Assembly (NCBI RefSeq): GCF_011174775.1 | Contig: NZ_JAANHS010000005.1 | Coordinates: 62,001 to 126,000 of the forward strand | DNA length: 64,000 nt | Reading direction: 5' to 3' | DNA from: Rhodobacter calidifons | Lineage (GTDB): Bacteria; Pseudomonadota; Alphaproteobacteria; Rhodobacterales; Rhodobacteraceae | In this document: one piece after another, positions 8,895 to 25,373 of the stretch | Position numbering within the stretch: the stretch's first letter is position 1 | Layout: each line of letters begins with the position of its first letter | Notes under the pieces: model-generated | Database searches by the model: none | What the model saw: only the letters and a program-made list of their open reading frames with translations | Told to the model about the DNA's origin: nothing | Position numbers and translations under genes: made by a program

Positions 8895-8970
8895 CGCCCG
8901 ACCGCGGCAAGCCCGGTTGACGCTGGCGGCGCGCGGGCCTAGCCATGGCGCAGCCGCTCAGGAGACCCTC

Positions 8971-10173
8971 ATGACCCTCGCCGCCGGCCGTCCCTATCTG
9001 GCCATTCCCGGACCTTCGGTGATCCCCGACCGCGTGTTGCGCGCGATGCATCGCGGCTCGCCCAACATCTACGAAGGCCCGCTGATCGAACTGGTGGCCG
9101 GCCTGATGCCCGATCTGCGGCTGGTCGCCGGGACAACGGGCCATGTTGCGATCTACATCGGCAACGGCCATGCGGGATGGGAGGCGGCGAATGCCAACCT
9201 CTTCAACCGGGGCGACAGGGCGCTGGTGCTGGCGGTGGGGCAGTTCGGCCTGTCCTGGGCCAATTCCGCCCGCGCGATGGGGGTGGAGGTCGAGGTCATG
9301 GACTTCGGCAAGTCCTCCCCCGTGGACATGGGGCGCGTCGAGGCCGCCCTGCGCGCCGACACCGGGCACCGGATCAAGGCGGTGCTCACGACGCAGGTCG
9401 ATACCGCCAGTTCGATCAAGACCGACATCCCTTCCTTGCGCGCCGCGATGGATGCCGCGGGGCACCCCGCGCTTCTGGCGGTGGACTGCATCGCCTCGCT
9501 TGGCTGCGACGAGTTCCGGATGGACGACTGGGGCGTCGATGTGATGGTCTCGGCCTGCCAGAAGGGCCTGATGACCCCGCCCGGCCTGGCCTTCGTCTGG
9601 TTCTCGGAAGCCGCCCGCCTGCGCTGCGGCCGATCCGACCTTGCGACGCCCTATTGGGCCTGGGGCCCCCGCGCCGAGCCCGAGGAGTTCTGGCAGCTCT
9701 GGGACGGGACCGCGCCGACGAGCCACCTTTACGGCCTGCGCGAGGCGCTGGACATGATCGCCGAAGAGGGTCTGCCCCAGGTCTGGGCGCGTCACCACAC
9801 GCTGGCCCGCACGGTCTGGGCCGCCTTCGACGCCTGGGGCGCGGGCAACCCGGCCATCGCGATGAACGTGGCCGACCCTGCGCATCGCGGCTGGTCGGTG
9901 ACGGCGGCCCGGCTGGGGGCGCCGCACGCCACGCGCCTGCGCGACTGGTGCGAGAAACAGGCCGGCGTCACTCTGGGCATCGGCCTTGGGATGGCACCCT
10001 CGACCGACCCGGCCTATCACGGCTTTCTGCGGGTGGGCCACATGGGGCATGTGAACGCGCACATGACCCTGGGCGCGCTTGCGGTGATGGAGGCGGGGAT
10101 GATCGCGCTGGACATTCCCCACGGGGAAGGGGCGCTGTCCGCCGCCGTCCGGGTCATCGGCACCGGGGCCTGA
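8971..10173 (+). CDS. Class V PLP aminotransferase (alanine/serine-glyoxylate aminotransferase family)
   Basis: The 400-aa enzyme belongs to the pyridoxal-phosphate class V aminotransferases that use glyoxylate as amino acceptor. The PLP-binding lysine is K198 in VMVSACQKGLMTPPG, preceded by the cofactor-contact Asp in LLAVDCIASLG (about 172). The N-terminal substrate loop GPSVIPDRVLRAM is typical. AGGAGA sits 7 bases before ATG 8971, which decides this start over an upstream in-frame one. Donor specificity (serine, alanine or ureidoglycine) cannot be assigned. It stands alone, followed by a strong hairpin. Confidence 0.88.
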   Translation: MTLAAGRPYLAIPGPSVIPDRVLRAMHRGSPNIYEGPLIELVAGLMPDLRLVAGTTGHVAIYIGNGHAGWEAANANLFNRGDRALVLAVGQFGLSWANSARAMGVEVEVMDFGKSSPVDMGRVEAALRADTGHRIKAVLTTQVDTASSIKTDIPSLRAAMDAAGHPALLAVDCIASLGCDEFRMDDWGVDVMVSACQKGLMTPPGLAFVWFSEAARLRCGRSDLATPYWAWGPRAEPEEFWQLWDGTAPTSHLYGLREALDMIAEEGLPQVWARHHTLARTVWAAFDAWGAGNPAIAMNVADPAHRGWSVTAARLGAPHATRLRDWCEKQAGVTLGIGLGMAPSTDPAYHGFLRVGHMGHVNAHMTLGALAVMEAGMIALDIPHGEGALSAAVRVIGTGA

Positions 10174-13253: not shown

Positions 13254-14523
13254 TCCGGTTCTCGCGCCGCTGCATCACCGTGAAGCGGAACCCGTGGAAA
13301 CTGAAGACCTGGCCCTCGTTCGGGATCATCTGCGCCTCGTGGATGACCAGGCCCGCGATGGTGTTCGCCTCGTCATCCGGCAGGCGCCAGTCCATCGCCC
13401 GGTTCAGGTCGCGGATCGTCATCGACCCATCGACCAGCCAGGAGCCGTCCTCGGTCTGCACCAGACCCGCATCCTTGCGCACCACGTCGAATTCGTCGGT
13501 GATGTCGCCGACGATTTCCTCAAGGATGTCCTCCAGCGTGATCAGCCCCTGCAAGGCGCCGTATTCGTCCACGACCAGCGCGAAATGCGTCCGCCGCGCC
13601 AGGAACTCGCGCATCTGTTCGTCCAGCGTGGTGGTGTCGGGGATGAAATAGGGTTTCATCGCCACCTTCACGATGTCCAGCGCCTCGATCCCCGGCGCGT
13701 CCGGGCCGCGGACCAGCCGGTCCACCTCGCGCAGAAGGTCCTTGGCATGGACCACGCCCAGGATGTTGTCGTCGCTGTCGCGAAAGATCGGCAGCCGGGT
13801 ATGGGGCGAGGCCAGGACGCGGGTGATGATCTCTCCCGGCGGCAGGTCGGCGTCGATCATCTCGATCTGGCGGCGGTGGCGCATGATCTCGTCCACCGTG
13901 CGGTGCGCCAGGTCCAGCGCTCCCAGCAGGCGGTCGCGGTCCTCCTTCTCCACCGCGCCCTCGGAATGACCCAGCGCAATGGCCCCGGCGATCTCCTCGC
14001 GCAGCGCCAGAAGCGGGTCCGAGGCATCGGCGCGCATCCCGAACAGACGCAGGATCGCGTTGACCAGCGTCCGCACGACCACGATGACCGGGGAAAAGAC
14101 CAGCGTCACCAGGCGGATGGCCGGCGCCACACGGGTTGCCACGGCCTCGGGATAGGTGATCGCCACGGTCTTCGGCATGACCTCGCCGAAGATCAGGACC
14201 AGCACGGTCATCACCAGCGTGGCCAGCGCCACGCCGCTGTCGCCGAACAGCCGGGTCAGCAGCGCGGTGGCAAGTGCGGCCGACAGGATGTTGACGATGT
14301 TGTTGCCCAGAAGGATCGCGCCGATCATCCGCTCGCGGTCGTCGGTCACCCGCAACGCGGCCTGTGCCCCGCGTGATCCGCGATCGGCCTGCGCCTTCAG
14401 CTTTGCACGCGACGAGGCCGTCAGCGAGGTCTCGGACCCGGAGAAGAAGGCGGACAGCATCAGCAGCGCCAGGATGGCGGCAGTGGTCAGCCAGAAGGCA
14501 GTATCAAAGGTCTCGGGTGTCAT
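13225..14523 (-). CDS. CNNM/CBS-domain protein of the HlyC/CorC family
   Basis: The 432-aa integral membrane protein has an N-terminal DUF21/CNNM domain (hydrophobic segments at about 10-30, 65-90, 95-115 and 130-150, with LIFGEVMPKTVA). Two CBS domains follow (about 205-330) and then a C-terminal CorC/HlyC transporter-associated domain (GSMTIRDLNRAMDWRLP to the end). The family is linked to Mg2+/Co2+ efflux or homeostasis; the hemolysin name is historical. It lies 15 bases downstream of xerD in what looks like an operon, and overlaps the HemG-like gene at the 3' end. Confidence 0.9.
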   Translation of the reverse strand: MTPETFDTAFWLTTAAILALLMLSAFFSGSETSLTASSRAKLKAQADRGSRGAQAALRVTDDRERMIGAILLGNNIVNILSAALATALLTRLFGDSGVALATLVMTVLVLIFGEVMPKTVAITYPEAVATRVAPAIRLVTLVFSPVIVVVRTLVNAILRLFGMRADASDPLLALREEIAGAIALGHSEGAVEKEDRDRLLGALDLAHRTVDEIMRHRRQIEMIDADLPPGEIITRVLASPHTRLPIFRDSDDNILGVVHAKDLLREVDRLVRGPDAPGIEALDIVKVAMKPYFIPDTTTLDEQMREFLARRTHFALVVDEYGALQGLITLEDILEEIVGDITDEFDVVRKDAGLVQTEDGSWLVDGSMTIRDLNRAMDWRLPDDEANTIAGLVIHEAQMIPNEGQVFSFHGFRFTVMQRRENRITKLKLRPL

Positions 14524-14538
14524 CGTCTCGTTCCGGGT

Positions 14539-15477
14539 TCAGCCCTTGCGGGCCAGGGGATGCCTGGTCAGGACAAGGTCCTTCAGATGGTCGTCCAGCA
14601 CATGGGTGTAGATTTCCGTCGTGGCGACATCGGCATGGCCAAGCAGGGTCTGGATCACCCGCAGATCGGCGCCGTTGGCCAGAAGATGGGTGGCGAAGGC
14701 ATGGCGCAGCACATGCGGCGTCACCCGCGCCGGCGACAGGCCCGCCCGCACCGCGACATCCTTGACCAGCGCATGAAAATACTGACGCGTCAGATGGCCC
14801 TCCCGCCCCTCGCCGGGAAAGAGAAAGCGCGAGGCCGGGCGTCCGGCCTGCCGCGCGGCCTCTTCCGCGCGGTCGCGCTCGGCCAGCCAGGCCGCCAGCG
14901 CCGCGCGGGCGGGGGTGGAAAGCGGCACCATCCGCTCCTTGTCGCCCTTGCCCTTGACCAGGATCATGCGCGGATCGCCCCGGACGGCGGCGACCGGCAG
15001 GCCGACCAGCTCGCTGACGCGCAGGCCCGTGGCATAAAGCAGCTCGAACAGCGCCGCGTCGCGCAGCCGGTCGGCTTCCGTCCGGCCCCGGCTCCGCGCC
15101 GCCTCCATCAGCCGCGCGACCTCGGCCTCGCTCAGCGTCCTGGGCAGGCCCTGCGCCTTTCCCGGCCCGGTCAGCCGCAGCGCGGGGTTGTCGCCGCGCC
15201 AGCCTTCCTCGAAGGCAAAGCGGTAAAGCTGTCGGATCGAGGACAGCCGCCGCGCCCGGGTGGCCTTCGACAGGCCCTGCGCATCGCAGGCCACAAGATA
15301 GTCCTCCACCGCCGCGCGGTCGGCCCCGGCCAGCCCCGCCCCGCGCCGGTTCAGCCAGTCGGCGAAATCCACCAGGTCCCGGCCATAGGCCAGCTGCGTG
15401 TTGCGCGCAGCCCCCAGATCGGCGGCCCTGGCGTCCAGGAAGGTCGAGATCCAGCGGCTCGACTCGGGGTCGGGCAT
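14539..15477 (-). CDS. xerD: Tyrosine recombinase XerD
   Basis: XerD acts with XerC at dif to resolve chromosome dimers. All catalytic residues of the tyrosine recombinase fold are visible in the 312-aa protein: R153 (ATGLRVSEL), K177 (KGKGDKER), H255 and R258 (HVLRHAFATH), H281 (LLGHADV) and nucleophile Y290 (IYTHV). The N-terminal SAM-like core-binding domain is present. GGAGGGG overlaps the stop of the upstream gene, 6 bases away, so translation is likely coupled. XerC versus XerD was decided on overall resemblance; no phage or integron context suggests a mobile integrase. Confidence 0.9.
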   Translation of the reverse strand: MPDPESSRWISTFLDARAADLGAARNTQLAYGRDLVDFADWLNRRGAGLAGADRAAVEDYLVACDAQGLSKATRARRLSSIRQLYRFAFEEGWRGDNPALRLTGPGKAQGLPRTLSEAEVARLMEAARSRGRTEADRLRDAALFELLYATGLRVSELVGLPVAAVRGDPRMILVKGKGDKERMVPLSTPARAALAAWLAERDRAEEAARQAGRPASRFLFPGEGREGHLTRQYFHALVKDVAVRAGLSPARVTPHVLRHAFATHLLANGADLRVIQTLLGHADVATTEIYTHVLDDHLKDLVLTRHPLARKG

Positions 15478-19550: not shown

Positions 19551-19730
19551 GGGCGGGACGTCTCTGCTCGGCCGTAAGGGGCGCACCGTCGTTCGGGCAC
19601 GGCCCCCGCGGGGCACGCGGCCGGGACAGGCGCGGTGCGACCCGCCCGACAGGCGCGTCTATGAAGCGAAACGGCCCCTCTGTCCAGTGCATTGCCCGGT
19701 CTATCACGCCGGCGCGATGCCGCTGCGCGA

Positions 19731-21383
19731 TCAGCTTGCGGCAAAGCGCAGCAAGGACCGCAGCGAGGTCAGCGCGCGCCTGCCCGGGCCTTTCAGCGGG
19801 CTCTGGCGCGGATGCCAGCCGCCGCCCGCATGGTTCAAAAGCGACTGCGGCATGTGCCGCATCAGCCCGGTGATCGTGTCGGCGATGATCTCGCTGGCCA
19901 GGGGGCCCAGACGCTCGCCCCGGCCATGGTGGCGCGCCTCGGCCAGCACGTACAGCCAGGGCGGGGTCTCGGCCAGCATGCCCAGCCCTTCCGCCAGCTC
20001 GCGCAGGCCCTGCTTGCCCGGGGCGCTTTCGGGCAGGGCGGCGCGCAGCTGATCCGCGTCCAGCGGCACCAGCCCGCAGGCCCGGGCCAGCACCTGGCCA
20101 AAGGGGATCCGACGCTGAAAGCCCCGCATCAGGTTGCGGAACAGGATCGAGCCATGCGCCGCCACTTCGGAATCGCCCATCGCGCTCAGCATCCCTTCCG
20201 CGAAGGTCAGGTCGATCTGCTCGGCCCCGCCCGGACCGGGCCCGGGTTTCGGACGCCGGGTCATCCGGTCCCAGTCGATGACCCAGTGGTCGGGCAGTTG
20301 CAGCGTCTCGGCCAGTTCCGGGTGCCCCATGTTGCCATGGGTGGTGAAGGCGAACAGGTCCTGCAACCTTGCCCCCGCGCGGTCGATGCGCCCGCCGCGG
20401 CCGAAATTGGCGTTGAAGTCGTAGGTGGCGCCGACCATCGAATGTCCGAAACGGAAGGCCGCGGTGGTGAATTCCAGCGGCACGGCGCGCGGGGCGGGCA
20501 GCTTCTGCGGGCGCTCGGCAAAGGGGGCGCGCAGGGTCAGGGGGGACAGCAGCTCTGCCAGGAAATCGTGCAGGATCAGCCAGTGGTAATGCAGCGTGAC
20601 CAGTTGCCTTGCCCTGGCGAAACAGGCGGCCCGATCCGGCGTCTCGCCCTCCAGCGCTGCCACCGCCTTGTTGTGGAACAGCAGAAGCGCCAGGTGCAGC
20701 TGGCTGACGATCAGGTTCTCGTCATTGCGCCGGTCGGCGATCAGGGGCTTTCCGTCCAGCCGCAGGATGTCGGGCGCGCCCCGGTCGTGGTGGATGCGCG
20801 CGGGGTCGCGGCCCCTGGCCCGGAAGACCTGCGCCGCTTCGGTTCGGGTCTTGCCCAGGCGGAACCGCTTGCCGTCCGGCGCATAAAGCGCCCGGATCTC
20901 CGGGTCGGCGCTGTCCGGCCCGTCGCCGTACAGGCTGTCCAGCGCCAGAGGCTCGGCCTGTTCGTTGACGAAGTTCGCCAGGATCACCGGCACCGGGGCC
21001 CGCTGCCACCTGTCCAGCCCCGGCGGAAGCCCGGTGTCGATGACCCCCATGCCCGCCGGGGGCGCGGCCAGCGTGACCACATCACCCACCGGGGCCGAGA
21101 TGTCATGGTTCACGAACTGGCCGAAATAGGTGTAGACCGGCGCCAGCCGCATCGGCAGCACCTGCGGCGCGGACAGGATGGAGCGGCTGTCCTTCTCGAA
21201 GGACTGCAAGCGCCGGAAGCTTTCGGCCGGCGTGGTGCCCTGGAAGCAGCCCACATCGGCCCGGCGGGCGAGGTCGGGGAACAGATAGCAGAAGCCGGAC
21301 TGCGACGGCCTGGCCGTCTCTCGGCGCGGCGCGGCGGCTCGGGCGGGTCCGAACAGGCTGTGCGGGGTCGAGATCGGCGGCAT
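19731..21383 (-). CDS. Animal-type heme peroxidase
   Basis: The 550-aa protein belongs to the peroxidase-cyclooxygenase superfamily (animal heme peroxidase). Visible hallmarks are the distal His93 in YFGQFVNHDIS, the catalytic Arg/Glu region RRNDENLIVSQLH (218-230) and the proximal His314 in FRFGHSMVGATYDFN. It would oxidise a donor with H2O2. No signal peptide is visible, so it is probably cytosolic or exported by an unrecognised route. It starts 21 bases after the YcaO gene on the same strand, with GAAAGG upstream, so the two should share a transcript. The pairing with YcaO suggests a modification pathway; the substrate is unknown. Confidence 0.86.
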   Translation of the reverse strand: MPPISTPHSLFGPARAAAPRRETARPSQSGFCYLFPDLARRADVGCFQGTTPAESFRRLQSFEKDSRSILSAPQVLPMRLAPVYTYFGQFVNHDISAPVGDVVTLAAPPAGMGVIDTGLPPGLDRWQRAPVPVILANFVNEQAEPLALDSLYGDGPDSADPEIRALYAPDGKRFRLGKTRTEAAQVFRARGRDPARIHHDRGAPDILRLDGKPLIADRRNDENLIVSQLHLALLLFHNKAVAALEGETPDRAACFARARQLVTLHYHWLILHDFLAELLSPLTLRAPFAERPQKLPAPRAVPLEFTTAAFRFGHSMVGATYDFNANFGRGGRIDRAGARLQDLFAFTTHGNMGHPELAETLQLPDHWVIDWDRMTRRPKPGPGPGGAEQIDLTFAEGMLSAMGDSEVAAHGSILFRNLMRGFQRRIPFGQVLARACGLVPLDADQLRAALPESAPGKQGLRELAEGLGMLAETPPWLYVLAEARHHGRGERLGPLASEIIADTITGLMRHMPQSLLNHAGGGWHPRQSPLKGPGRRALTSLRSLLRFAAS

Positions 21384-21404
21384 GGCGGCCTTTCGGCAAC
21401 GGGA

Positions 21405-22463
21405 TCAGAAGGGTTCGGGCAGGGTCGGCCGGGGCTGGTCCGGACAAAGCCGGGCATAGCGCGGGCAGTCGATCCGCCCCCGCATCGCGCAGAGACCGGG
21501 CACCAGCACCCGGACCGCAGGCAGGGGGTCGCCGGGCAGGGTCATGTCGATGCCCAGAGCCCGGTGCCCAAGCCGGTCCAGCCGTTCCAGAAGGGCAGGC
21601 ATCTCCATCGGCCGGGCCGGCCGTTCCGGCCCCGGCTGGAACTGCGGCTGCCCGATCAGCGAGGCCGCGGCCAGCCAGGCGGCCGCTTCCGGATCCCCGG
21701 CCTCGCGGGCGTGTTCCAGACTGACCTCGGTCTGCACCATTTCCGTGACCGCGGCGAGGGCGGCATCCTCCAGCACGGGCCGCGCAGCCGCGCCCATGGC
21801 GACGGTCCGCCCGTCGGGATCGGCCGAGGCGGCCACCACGACCGGCAGGCCGATGTCGCTGGTGATCTCGATCAGCCGGGTCTGCCGGGCGCGCTGGTGC
21901 AGCCACCAGTAGAGGCGCGGCTGGTGGGCGTCGATGATCTCGGTCTCCACCCGGCCGCCCGGCAGCCGGCCATGCCACCACAGGGCCAGCGCATCGCGCT
22001 CGACGCATTCCCACAGCCCCCGGGCCAGCGCGCTGTCGCGGTCCGGCCCGACCGCGCATCCTGTGGAATTGGCATCCTCGCGCAGGGGCTCGCCGAGGAT
22101 CGCCGCGCAATCCAGATAGACCTCCTGCGCCGGCACCTCGACCGTCGCCCCGCTGACCAGATCGCTTGTCGCGACCATGGCGATGCCGTCCCGGCGCGGC
22201 AGTCGGCGCAGGTCGGACAGGTGCCGCTGCGCCAGGCTCGCGCGCAGCTCCAGCGCCTCGGCACCGGCCGCCAGCATCGCCTGCTGCGGCGTCATGCCCC
22301 GTCCGGCCGGCAGCCGCGGCTTCAGCCCGGTCACCCCGTCATCCGTCGGCAGGGCGACGGCCAGGAACAGCGGCGCATCGGGTTCGTCCAGGGCGAGGAT
22401 GCGGAAATCGTCGTCCAGGGCGCGCGCCAGTTTCGCGATCAGCTCGGCCGGATTTTGCTTCAT
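21405..22463 (-). CDS. Stand-alone YcaO-domain protein
   Basis: The 352-aa protein has the YcaO ATP-using fold known from azoline- and thioamide-forming RiPP enzymes. Recognisable elements are AEALELRAS (about 68-76), DANSTGCAVG (130-139), LWECVERDALALWW (150-163, ATP/Mg-binding Glu) and AVTEMVQTE (238-246). In the last, the Arg usual after Gln is not obvious. The C-terminus is Pro-rich (QPRPTLPEPF), recalling the PxPxP tail of cyclodehydratases. No ThiF/E1-like or TfuA partner is adjacent. ATG 22463 is chosen; a TTG lies 4 codons upstream. It is the first gene of the YcaO-peroxidase operon, and its substrate is unknown. Confidence 0.85.
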   Translation of the reverse strand: MKQNPAELIAKLARALDDDFRILALDEPDAPLFLAVALPTDDGVTGLKPRLPAGRGMTPQQAMLAAGAEALELRASLAQRHLSDLRRLPRRDGIAMVATSDLVSGATVEVPAQEVYLDCAAILGEPLREDANSTGCAVGPDRDSALARGLWECVERDALALWWHGRLPGGRVETEIIDAHQPRLYWWLHQRARQTRLIEITSDIGLPVVVAASADPDGRTVAMGAAARPVLEDAALAAVTEMVQTEVSLEHAREAGDPEAAAWLAAASLIGQPQFQPGPERPARPMEMPALLERLDRLGHRALGIDMTLPGDPLPAVRVLVPGLCAMRGRIDCPRYARLCPDQPRPTLPEPF

Positions 22464-22471
22464 TCCCGCAT

Positions 22472-22500
22472 TCAAGGCAGGATGACCCGCGGGATCAAGG
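22472..22500. promoter_or_regulatory. Direct repeat in the YcaO / 126-aa divergent promoter region
   Basis: TCAAGG occurs at 22472-22477 and 22495-22500, 23 bases apart. The similarity extends outward (TCAAGGCAGGA versus TCAAGGACGGA). SARP-type regulators bind short direct repeats spaced about two helical turns apart, and such a regulator is encoded next door, so this is a candidate site. Confidence 0.25.
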
Positions 22501-22608
22501 ACGGAATCGGTCGCCGCCGGCGCATTTCACGCTGGCATCACGAACCGGCCGGATACTGGTTCCGGGCGGAAGAGCGGCAACAGCCAGGGCAAGGGGAGAG
22601 ACGGCGGA

Positions 22609-22989
22609 ATGGTGGGATTCTTCAATCTGAAAAGCAATGTGCTCGCCGATCAGGTCGATACGGGCGAGGCGATCATGCGGGTCAGCAGAAGCGTGTTCAA
22701 GGACTCGCCGAATTCGGAATGGAAGAAGTTCGAGGACGACACCCGCGGCTGGCTGCATGCGAACGGCTACCGCTATGACGGGCCGGGCGCCGGGCCGAAC
22801 GGCGAGATCCCGGACAGCGTGCAGATCGTGCCGGTCTATGACACGGCGAACCGGATGCATGTCCGCATCCCCTGGGCCGGCCTGCTGAAGAACCCGCCCG
22901 CCGTGGTGGACGAACCGACCTACGGCAATACCCAGTCGATCCGCTTCAAGGTGCTGCTCGCGCGCTATTTCATGCGGCACTGCCGCTAG
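22609..22989 (+). CDS. Orphan 126-aa protein beside the YcaO operon
   Basis: I do not recognise this protein. It has AAGGGGAGAG upstream of the ATG, so translation is likely. It is soluble and mixed alpha/beta, with a single Cys near the end (FMRHCR). It is rich in Trp, Tyr, Pro and Asn (WKKFEDDTRGWLHANGYRYD, DGPGAGPNGE, VVDEPTYGNTQ), with no signal peptide or membrane helix. It is divergent from YcaO, with 145 bases between the starts, and convergent with the BTAD regulator. It could be a partner, a carrier or an unusually large substrate of the YcaO/peroxidase pair, or an unrelated gene. It looks globular, unlike a classical precursor peptide. Confidence 0.68.
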   Translation: MVGFFNLKSNVLADQVDTGEAIMRVSRSVFKDSPNSEWKKFEDDTRGWLHANGYRYDGPGAGPNGEIPDSVQIVPVYDTANRMHVRIPWAGLLKNPPAVVDEPTYGNTQSIRFKVLLARYFMRHCR

Positions 22990-23004
22990 GGCAGGCCGCC
23001 CCGG

Positions 23005-23020
23005 GCCCGGGCGTCCGGGC
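23005..23020. terminator. GC-rich hairpin between convergent genes
   Basis: Perfect 6-bp arms (23005-23010 with 23015-23020) with a GCGT loop fill the 31-base gap between the 126-aa gene and the regulator. There is no T run, so its termination strength is uncertain. Confidence 0.4.
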
Positions 23021-25039
23021 CTAGGCGTTCTCGGCTGCCATGGCCCGGGCCAGCCGGATGCCCCTTTGCAGGGACAGGCGGCCTTCGGGCCAGTTGATCG
23101 GCAGCGTGTCCAGCACCCAGGCCTCCAGATCCTCGTCGGTCGGGGGGGTGCTGCCTTCCCACATCTGCGTCGCGATCCGGCGGAAGGTCGCATAGGCGCG
23201 GGCGGCCTCGCGCGTCTGGCCCAGATGCGCGTAAGAGGCCACCGCCCAGACGCCCAGGTCGGGAAAGCCGTCGGGGCATTTCTCGACCGTGGCGATGGTG
23301 GTCTCGTGGTCGCCGGCCATGAAGTGGATCCCGGCGAGATAGGCGATGTAATACTCGGGATAGATCGGGTTCAGCCGCAGCGCCTGCTGCGCCAGGTCCC
23401 TGGCCAGATCGACATGTCCCAGGAAGCCCAGCCCGCTGGCCGCCGCGATCAGCGTCTCGGCATCGTTCGGGTTCATGTCCACCGCCAGCCGGAAATGCGA
23501 ATTGGCCCGTTCCGGCGACCGCGCAATGGCCCAGTTCCAGGCCATGCTGATGTGGCAGCGCGGGTCATAGGGGTCCAGCGCGATCGCCTCGCGCGCATGG
23601 CGGAAGGCGGCGGCGCAGTCGGCCTTGCGGTTGGCGTAACCGGGCCGGACCATGCAGCGCGTGCTCAGCACCTGCGCGAGGCTCGCGTGGCTGCCGGCAA
23701 GGCCGGGGTCCAGCTCGATCGCCTTCAGGAACAGGGCTTCGGCCTGGGCATCCGCCTCGGCCGACCAGAGCCGCGACAGCTGATGCCCCTTCAGCCACAG
23801 GTCATAGGCCACCGGATTGCCGGGCGTGGACCGCGCATGGCGCAGCAGCGTGATGTGGTTCACCTGACTGGCCAGATGCGCCGCCACCGCCCCCGCGACC
23901 GAGGAACTGACCTCCTGCAACTCGTGCTCGGCCACCGGGTAAAGCTGGGACCAGACCTCGCTGCCGTCGCGGCAATCGATCAGCGTGACGAACAGCTTGC
24001 CCTGGCCCGTGCGCCAGTCCAGCACGCAGTCCACCGCGAAATCGGCGTCGATCACCTGGCCGACGGCGGTGAAATCGACGGCCGTCGTCGAATTGAAGCC
24101 GCTCGACGGCCAGGGGATCACGATCCAGCAGCGAAAGCGCGACAGGCAGGACTTGGCCAGAAAGGCGAACCCCTCGCCGAGATAGTCCTTGCTGTCATCG
24201 ACATAGCGGGTCAGGGGCGGGCGGATGGTGATCCGCGGCGGGCCGTTGCGCGTCAGGGGCGCTGGCGCTGCCAGGGGCGCCGCGGCGGAGCGCTGCAACG
24301 AGACCTCGCCGCTCTTGATCGCGACCAGAAGCGCATTCGTGGCCTCGCTCGGCTCGCTGTCCAGTTCTTCCGCAAGCGCCTGTTCCAGCAGCCCGTATTG
24401 CCGCAGCGCCGCCGACTGGTCGCCGCGCTGGGCGTGAAAGCGCATGATGAACTGATGCGCAAGCTCGTGGCTGGGTTCGACCCGGACCAACTCTTCGGCG
24501 ATGCGGGTGTCGGCGAAGCTGTTGGCCGCGATCAGCCTTTCCAGCTGGTCGGTCAGCGCGCCGGTCAGGATCGAGCGCAGCTGCGTCCGTTCGATCTGCA
24601 ACCAGGCCTCGAAGACCGGCGCGCTGGGCTGGGCCGGGCCGAACAGTTCGCCCTGCCAGAGCGCCGCCGCCGCCAGAAGCGCGCTCTGGTCGTGGGTCGC
24701 TGTCGCGATCAGCTCGCGGAACCGCCGCACGTCCAGATCGAACGCCGCCGACTTCAGGCCCACCGAAAAGCGGTCGGCCTCGATCACGTCCGCGTCCTGC
24801 GGGCCCAGCACTTCCTTCAGCTCGCGCAGCGCCTGGCGCAGGCTGGACCGCGCCAGCGTCTCGGGTGCCGGGTCCCACAACAGCGAGGCCAGCTGCTCGC
24901 GGTTTATCCGCTGGCCGGGGGACAGCAGCAGAAGGCCCAGCAGAAGCCGCGTCTTGCGCGTGCGGAACGCCAGGTCCTCTCCGGTCGCGATGCGCGCGAC
25001 CCGGCAGGCACCGAGAAGATCGACCTGGAAGCGGAACAT
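23021..25039 (-). CDS. SARP-like transcriptional regulator: winged helix + BTAD + TPR
   Basis: The 672-aa protein has an OmpR-type winged-helix domain at the N-terminus (FRTRKTRLLLGLLLLSPGQ, INREQLASLLWD). A bacterial transcriptional activation domain follows to about residue 240 (RVEPSHELAHQFIMRFHAQR). Next come a TolB-like stretch (VGQVIDADFAVDCVLDWRTG, DGSEVWSQLY) and several TPR repeats (AEALFLKAIELDPGLAGSHA, RHAREAIALDPYDPR). This build resembles SARP/adenylate-cyclase-like regulators that control secondary metabolism or virulence. ATG 25039 fits the family N-terminus; a TTG start at 25084 is possible. It probably controls the adjacent YcaO-peroxidase operon or its 126-aa neighbour, by position only. 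Confidence 0.83.
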   Translation of the reverse strand: MFRFQVDLLGACRVARIATGEDLAFRTRKTRLLLGLLLLSPGQRINREQLASLLWDPAPETLARSSLRQALRELKEVLGPQDADVIEADRFSVGLKSAAFDLDVRRFRELIATATHDQSALLAAAALWQGELFGPAQPSAPVFEAWLQIERTQLRSILTGALTDQLERLIAANSFADTRIAEELVRVEPSHELAHQFIMRFHAQRGDQSAALRQYGLLEQALAEELDSEPSEATNALLVAIKSGEVSLQRSAAAPLAAPAPLTRNGPPRITIRPPLTRYVDDSKDYLGEGFAFLAKSCLSRFRCWIVIPWPSSGFNSTTAVDFTAVGQVIDADFAVDCVLDWRTGQGKLFVTLIDCRDGSEVWSQLYPVAEHELQEVSSSVAGAVAAHLASQVNHITLLRHARSTPGNPVAYDLWLKGHQLSRLWSAEADAQAEALFLKAIELDPGLAGSHASLAQVLSTRCMVRPGYANRKADCAAAFRHAREAIALDPYDPRCHISMAWNWAIARSPERANSHFRLAVDMNPNDAETLIAAASGLGFLGHVDLARDLAQQALRLNPIYPEYYIAYLAGIHFMAGDHETTIATVEKCPDGFPDLGVWAVASYAHLGQTREAARAYATFRRIATQMWEGSTPPTDEDLEAWVLDTLPINWPEGRLSLQRGIRLARAMAAENA

Positions 25040-25373
25040 GCGAACTGGCCCGGGATCAGAGAGTTCAACGATGCACCGAAGCAAGGCGGCCTTTCAACAG
25101 ACCACGGCCAGGAAATCCACCAGAGTCCGGCGCTGTGGCTCTGCGGTTGCCCCGCGGCGCGGATTTGGCGCTGAGGTCGCGGGAAAATCACGCAGGCCCG
25201 GCTTGTCTGACCTTGCTCTGCACACATCGTCGCGGGGCGGGAAATGCGATTTCGAAACATGACTTCGCCAATACGCGAGATCGGGATGAAGGCCGTCCTT
25301 GCCATGTCGCCTGTGCCGCCGAGGTGCGGACGACCCTGGGCCTGCCTGCGAACTAGGTCGCCCCGGCCGCGCC
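25040..25373. other. Non-coding stretch upstream of the BTAD regulator (334 bases)
   Basis: No convincing gene was found on either strand. It holds a small perfect hairpin, GAAAT (25241-25245) and ATTTC (25249-25253) around GCG, next to TTTCGAAA. The promoter of the regulator must lie here, but I cannot assign -35 and -10 elements with confidence. Confidence 0.5.

Follow-up and report, generated by a model that had tools for sequence, protein, structure and literature searches.

In a 64,000-nucleotide stretch of DNA from Rhodobacter calidifons (the window), genes for a stand-alone YcaO protein, an animal-type heme peroxidase, a winged-helix/BTAD/TPR regulator, and a 126-amino-acid (aa) protein, hereafter P126, make up one four-gene unit that is present or absent as a block. 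We judge it reasonably probable that this self-contained unit modifies a small folded protein post-translationally, with the YcaO cyclizing a penultimate Cys and the peroxidase oxidizing the product. P126 is probably the substrate of the YcaO. The features of the locus are as follows, with coordinates given as positions in the window.

19731-21383, minus strand: animal-type heme peroxidase, 550 aa (PF03098, 40.3 bits versus a cut-off of 25); candidate oxidase acting after YcaO
21405-22463 (ATG start) or 21405-22475 (TTG start), minus strand: stand-alone YcaO, 352 to 356 aa (PF02624, 133.7 bits versus a cut-off of 25.7)
22527-22542, plus strand: direct repeat TCACG-N6-TCACG, candidate operator, 66 bp upstream of the P126 ATG
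22552-22557, plus strand: GATACT, a weak −10-like hexamer 9 bp past the repeat
22609-22989, plus strand: P126, 126 aa, substrate candidate, ending in LLARYFMRHCR; no family match
23021-25039 (ATG start) or 23021-25084 (TTG start), minus strand: winged-helix/BTAD/TPR regulator (BTAD, 57.6 bits versus a cut-off of 22.1)
19617-25373, no strand: extent of the four-gene unit, bounded by the gene of a 190-aa open reading frame (ORF) and a phosphodiesterase-like gene, which are adjacent where the unit is absent (L170, L171, L172, and L175)

The coordinates, the gene order, and the gap of 21 bases between the peroxidase and YcaO genes, both on the minus strand, had been given in a prediction made earlier from the DNA letters (the original prediction). 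They were borne out by the ORFs and family matches, as was the placing of a BTAD/TPR regulator beside the unit. The YcaO was the only YcaO match in the whole 3.6-Mb genome. Gene prediction called no separate short precursor gene inside the unit, and P126 occupies that place. The claim that no precursor lies adjacent stood for a separate short gene but not for P126, which had been called an orphan and is itself the leading candidate for the substrate, given the gene position and the penultimate Cys (residue 125, the sole Cys of P126) that it has in common with its counterparts. E1/ThiF, TfuA, and transporter genes had been described as absent, and none was found among the four genes, nor was a protease gene. 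Hidden Markov model (HMM) searches of the four unit proteins returned no C protein, E1-like domain, or recognition element (RRE) of ribosomally synthesized and post-translationally modified peptides (RiPPs), with the limit that a diverged RRE could fall below HMM sensitivity; TfuA was found neither in the cassette proteins nor in the two scanned flanking proteins. A defense function was rejected, as PADLOC gave 0 matches for the four unit proteins at an E value of ≤0.01.

The four genes are present or absent as a block

The distribution of the four genes was followed across 32 same-genus genomes. The YcaO query matched 15 of them: 13 strongly (E value ≤ 1.8 × 10−83), one with a diverged protein (G004, 31% identity), and one with a trace that contains a stop (G013, E value = 7 × 10−4). 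The P126 profile matched exactly the 13 genomes with a strong YcaO, and close regulator matches fell in the same 13, with distant TPR proteins in G004 and three others. The co-occurrence of YcaO, P126, and regulator was significant (Fisher test, P value = 2.9 × 10−9, uncorrected for kinship). Twelve of these 13 genomes have a peroxidase match beside the YcaO; in the remaining one, G018, the contig stops within the first residues of the peroxidase. The family PF03098 was present in 17 of the 32 genomes, including 4 that do not carry this YcaO (G014, G019, G023, and G027), and is not confined to the unit. The original prediction had proposed a distinct YcaO-peroxidase unit, to be checked by the linkage of the two genes in relatives; they are linked there, and the unit is kept across several genera.

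The phosphodiesterase-like flank gene was present in 19 genomes, 8 of them with no close unit, and the flanking DNA was read for 7 of those 8. The two flank genes lie side by side in four of the seven, with 90 to 241 bp between the matched parts and aroB and aroK farther out; the remaining three, where the second flank gene is absent from the stretch read, are uninformative. The same two flank genes bracket exactly the four unit genes in the window. They were not found in the 15 to 20 kb read in G011 and G021, and the unit is therefore also located elsewhere. Some draft genomes carry in-frame interruptions, namely in the regulator of L032 (G021), the YcaO and regulator of L033/L047 (G011 = L047), and the YcaO of L048, which are decay or sequencing error.

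A penultimate cysteine recurs in distant relatives

Distant loci were taken as the best 80 of 542 relatives from a scan of genome contigs, and YcaO, regulator, and peroxidase were marked with profiles built in this analysis. Among the matches listed, the closest named records were Rhodobacter sp. SY28-1 and metagenome-assembled genomes of Tabrizicola. All three markers occurred in 31 of the 80 loci, and by ORF reading, 29 of these 31 held an ORF of about 110 to 200 aa ending in Cys-x with a recognizable tail: ARYFMRxCR in group 1 (the Rhodobacter side), R(I/V/C)xDYxxxxCx in group 2 (Bradyrhizobium and others), and tails such as GTIxxRRCx in group 3 (Rhizobium, Ruegeria, and Shimia). Penultimate-Cys ORFs also arise by chance in three-marker loci, so we used a stricter count, by a gene caller that takes no account of the tail. 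This count gave a penultimate Cys in 25 of the 31 loci and in 25 of 35 small genes versus 29 of 942 genes outside the clusters (P value = 9 × 10−27, uncorrected for kinship). The gene caller missed the Cys-tailed ORF in L047, L049, L052, and L054. A reciprocal search of 385 class genomes with the group 2 profile returned two matches (G515 and G652), both with a YcaO match 2.2 to 2.3 kb off on the same contig; neither is among the 80 loci that were the source of the profile, and their best DNA match was 77 to 82% over short stretches of L068.

Sequence conservation between the groups collapses nearly everywhere except in the last ten residues, and comparison of group 3 with groups 1 and 2 by hhalign gave tail similarity only. 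Searches of NCBIfam and Pfam with P126 and its counterparts (34 small proteins) gave no significant match. The AlphaFold2 model of P126 had a predicted local distance difference test (pLDDT) score of 79 and a predicted template modeling (pTM) score of 0.77; a group 3 protein, modeled with AlphaFold from an alignment that held no group 1 rows, reached a pLDDT of 73. Both models start with strand-helix-helix-strand.

Several observations weigh against our reading of the unit. Eight of the 31 loci (L039, L040, L042, L044, L045, L047, L049, and L087) were known before the test from the same genomes (the other 23 had a Cys tail in 19 by the gene caller and in 21 by ORF reading), and the 31 include near-copies, for example, eight of Bradyrhizobium type. 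The 34 counterparts were selected partly by their tail, which makes their 34/34 Cys circular and their figures descriptive only: invariance is limited to Met1 and the penultimate Cys, 27 of the 34 have no further Cys, and a Gly or Ala stands seven residues ahead of the Cys in 33. The small-protein tails of L056 and L076 are CCSEC and CCAAC instead of Cys-x. YcaO, regulator, and a Cys-tailed protein occur in L068, L102, L116, and L118 with no peroxidase match in the DNA examined, and the peroxidase is therefore not obligatory; in L057 and L074, neither a peroxidase match nor a Cys tail was found. Four regions from a plasmid search were examined: two rhizobial loci (L177 and L178) have YcaO and regulator, no peroxidase match, and no Cys-tailed ORF that fits the pattern, L179 is an annotated SagB-type cluster, and L180 shows just a single long YcaO ORF. 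The P126 and YcaO genes are divergent and hence not one operon, and Foldseek with the P126 and group 3 models returned no solved relative. Finally, L055 (9471-15518) holds a Cys-tailed ORF ending in IFKRCR, a YcaO, a cyclase-like TPR protein, and, nearby, an M14 zinc carboxypeptidase gene, but gave no match to the peroxidase; removal of the final residue is a possible role for the carboxypeptidase.

Other features were seen at these loci. Near YcaO loci that have no peroxidase (L057 13481-13735, L102 14528-14761, and L118 15288-15536) lie genes for proteins of some 80 aa that resemble one another on visual inspection (RQxWQ motif), the one in L057 behind a TCACG repeat. L118 also encodes (13327-15096, minus strand) a 589-aa protein in the peroxidase's place beside the Cys-tailed gene, with no Pfam match at an E value of 0.1; whether it might be an alternative tailoring enzyme is a question that its position raises. 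A diverged copy of the system (L036, G305:C2) seems to be carried by a 124-kb plasmid (probably CP023455.1) of a paddy-soil Rhodobacteraceae strain.

YcaO and the heme peroxidase

Among solved sequences, the YcaO profile matched TruD, LynD, and MusD best (E values of 4 × 10−52 to 5 × 10−51), which places the protein in the cyclodehydratase branch of the thiazole/oxazole-modified microcins and linear azol(in)e-containing peptides (TOMM/LAP). Weaker matches were to MJ1094 (3 × 10−19), 6ci7 (2 × 10−16), and McbD (1.6 × 10−4), and we take none of the six solved sequences at an E value of ≤0.01 to be E. coli YcaO. By sequence, then, this YcaO sides with the azoline formers and not with MJ1094 or McbD. 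Orthology to the E. coli-type YcaO, which the original prediction had named as a finding that would speak against it, was not borne out by these matches, and an E. coli-type YcaO and thioamidation are both disfavored. The protein does not have the N-terminal half of TruD, LynD, and MusD, and its TIGR03604 match (115.7 bits) is below the cut-off of 219.25. Residues E69, E72, E152, E155, and R156 were invariant in 12 of 12 sequences. When 81 YcaO proteins were placed in a quick tree, 38 rows with no peroxidase, mostly long ORFs and by length of the fused kind, formed one branch (97%); the peroxidase-linked YcaOs fell outside it, and L056 and L076 adjoined it.

The curated score and the catalytic residues both assign the oxidase candidate to the animal heme peroxidases (PF03098). 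Of 58 aligned rows, 57 keep H93, R219, D221, and H314 and one has a gap; we presume from myeloperoxidase that these residues include the distal His, distal Arg, and proximal His. The stretch 208-326, which contains two of the motifs, could be aligned to peroxinectin A (6erc, E value = 0.0016). Tyr/Trp cross-linking, which the original prediction had offered as a reaction for the peroxidase, is disfavored as the general one: Tyr at −7 from the end occurs in 24 of the 34 counterparts and is not common to all groups, whereas Cys is found in all.

The regulator and a direct repeat

SARP regulators bind 11-bp direct repeats. Alignment of the divergent promoter from 14 loci gave a direct repeat with an 11-bp pitch (TTTCACG, a CTGGC-like spacer, and TCACG), and TCACG-N6-TCACG is a candidate operator of the BTAD regulator. 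All 17 close loci (the 14 discovery loci plus another three) carry the repeat 44 to 70 bp upstream of the ATG, and in 10 of them a −10-like hexamer lies 9 to 10 bp past it. Across the 80 loci, there were 56 matches versus 0 for the reversed control. Of the 35 loci with a winged helix-BTAD protein and no cyclase domain, 27 contain the repeat; of the 11 with a cyclase domain, none does (P value = 6 × 10−6). The difference is also seen when the 10 group 1 loci that were the source of the pattern are left out (17 of 25 versus 0 of 11, P value = 1.5 × 10−4). Six of the eight winged helix-BTAD loci with no repeat are actinobacterial, and two regulator-less loci have a match (L072, at a contig end, and L117). 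In group 2, the repeat precedes either the peroxidase gene, which the small-protein gene follows, or the small-protein gene itself. Compared with SARP/AfsR proteins, the regulator has a BTAD domain over the cut-off, an N-terminal winged helix below it (22.3 bits versus 26.2), and a direct repeat, binding to which is only predicted.

The repeat alone is not specific: the window's single match is not significant (14 of 100 shuffles also have one), and the whole genome gave 6 matches versus 2 for the control. Some of the five other matches in the R. calidifons genome (G000:C4:3330, C9:27009, C11:49678, C57:25414, and C58:23235) may be chance. In Bradyrhizobium, genes for proteins of about 105 to 108 and 173 to 184 aa each lie behind a TCACG repeat (L078 8040-8366, plus strand, and 8933-9487, minus strand; also L063, L100, and L072) and are possible further regulon members.

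Proposed mechanism and alternatives

In the mechanism that we propose, the regulator would bind the 11-bp direct repeat and switch on P126. The body of P126 would dock on the stand-alone YcaO, replacing the absent leader/RRE pair, and the YcaO with ATP would form a thiazoline close to the C-terminus by cyclizing Cys125 onto the peptide carbonyl before it. The peroxidase would then oxidize this product, most simply to a thiazole. Because the unit has neither a protease nor a transporter, the modified protein itself may be the final product. More tentatively, the unit might represent a new RiPP-like class: a heterocycle made by YcaO at the penultimate residue of a folded carrier would be matured by a heme peroxidase instead of a flavin dehydrogenase, and the product would be the entire protein with its C-terminal azol(in)e, perhaps a BTAD-switched cofactor or signal.

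A diverged RiPP of the proteusin (nitrile hydratase-like leader peptide [NHLP]) type is a less probable explanation that still deserves attention. P126 would then be a leader plus core, from which a housekeeping protease frees a short Cys-heterocycle peptide. NHLP leaders are described as folded and recognized by a YcaO (PMC12455567), and the P126 profile aligned with them at the signature DP..L...G...P..V...DT...P (hhalign E value = 9 × 10−4, at a probability of only 22.6%), as did group 2 at the same signature (E value = 0.017, probability of 2.6%); the small protein of L076 matched TIGR03793 with an E value of 0.06 (13.2 bits, cut-off of 50.9). However, none of the 34 small proteins gave a TIGR03793/NHLP match at an E value of ≤1, nor did L056, no GG-type site was seen, the missing protease and transporter speak the same way, and Foldseek returned no NHLP structure. 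NHLP membership was not established by the profile, HMM, and fold tests.

YcaO enzymes perform three backbone chemistries, azoline, thioamide, and amidine formation. We weighed, as a somewhat unlikely alternative, a YcaO that makes a thioamide or amidine at the tail, with the peroxidase acting elsewhere, for example, in oxidant generation. The same YcaO and tail at some loci with no peroxidase would fit it, but no TfuA or sulfur donor was found among the cassette proteins, the YcaO groups with azoline formers by profile, and cyclodehydration requires what the counterparts share, a Cys that is the sole one in most of them.

It is improbable that P126 is a partner of YcaO (a leader-like adaptor or regulator) whose real substrate is encoded elsewhere in the genome. 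The divergent transcription of P126, its predicted fold, and its large size for a precursor would fit this, but only its last ten residues escape the near-complete collapse of conservation across groups, as expected of a substrate tail, and the empty sites yield no fifth gene. That the genes are chance neighbors is very improbable and already contradicted by their shared 13-genome distribution, the tail-blind count, the reciprocal group 2 search, and the empty sites, even if TPR regulators and PF03098 peroxidases occur without this YcaO too.

Comparison with known systems

No description of a YcaO-heme peroxidase pathway was found in the literature searched, which covered few subscription journals. 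If the proposed mechanism is true, the heme peroxidase would join the tailoring enzymes of YcaO pathways, and the substrate would be of a type easily overlooked when RiPPs are mined by their precursors, as short precursor, RRE, and transporter are all missing. The unit would also be a minimal four-gene system open to testing in E. coli. More such systems could be sought simply by their penultimate-Cys tail and TCACG repeat.

YcaO-TfuA thioamidation and the E. coli-type YcaO resemble the unit in that the likely substrate is a protein and not a short peptide (compare MCR and uL16), but the unit has no TfuA and its YcaO is placed elsewhere by sequence. Bottromycin-type stand-alone D-protein TOMMs (PMC4603692) have a YcaO with no C protein, as the unit does; they differ in substrate and tailoring enzyme, and their radical SAM enzyme or methyltransferase is not in the unit. 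In the NHLP proteusins (MprC with MprE), a folded substrate body is recognized by YcaO, and signature similarity to P126 is weak; MprC carries an RRE and MprD depends on flavin (PMC12455567), whereas here a TIGR03793 match and a leader/core boundary are missing. TruD, LynD, and MusD of TOMM/LAP share the YcaO domain with the unit (profile E value of about 10−51). There, a C protein/RRE is fused or adjacent, the core is rich in Cys, Ser, and Thr, and a flavin dehydrogenase is used; here, no C protein/RRE was found in the unit, P126 has a single-Cys tail (as do the 27 single-Cys counterparts), and a heme peroxidase takes the place of the dehydrogenase. While it fails the defining TOMM features of a C protein/RRE and a rich core, the unit would work like an azoline-forming YcaO pathway.

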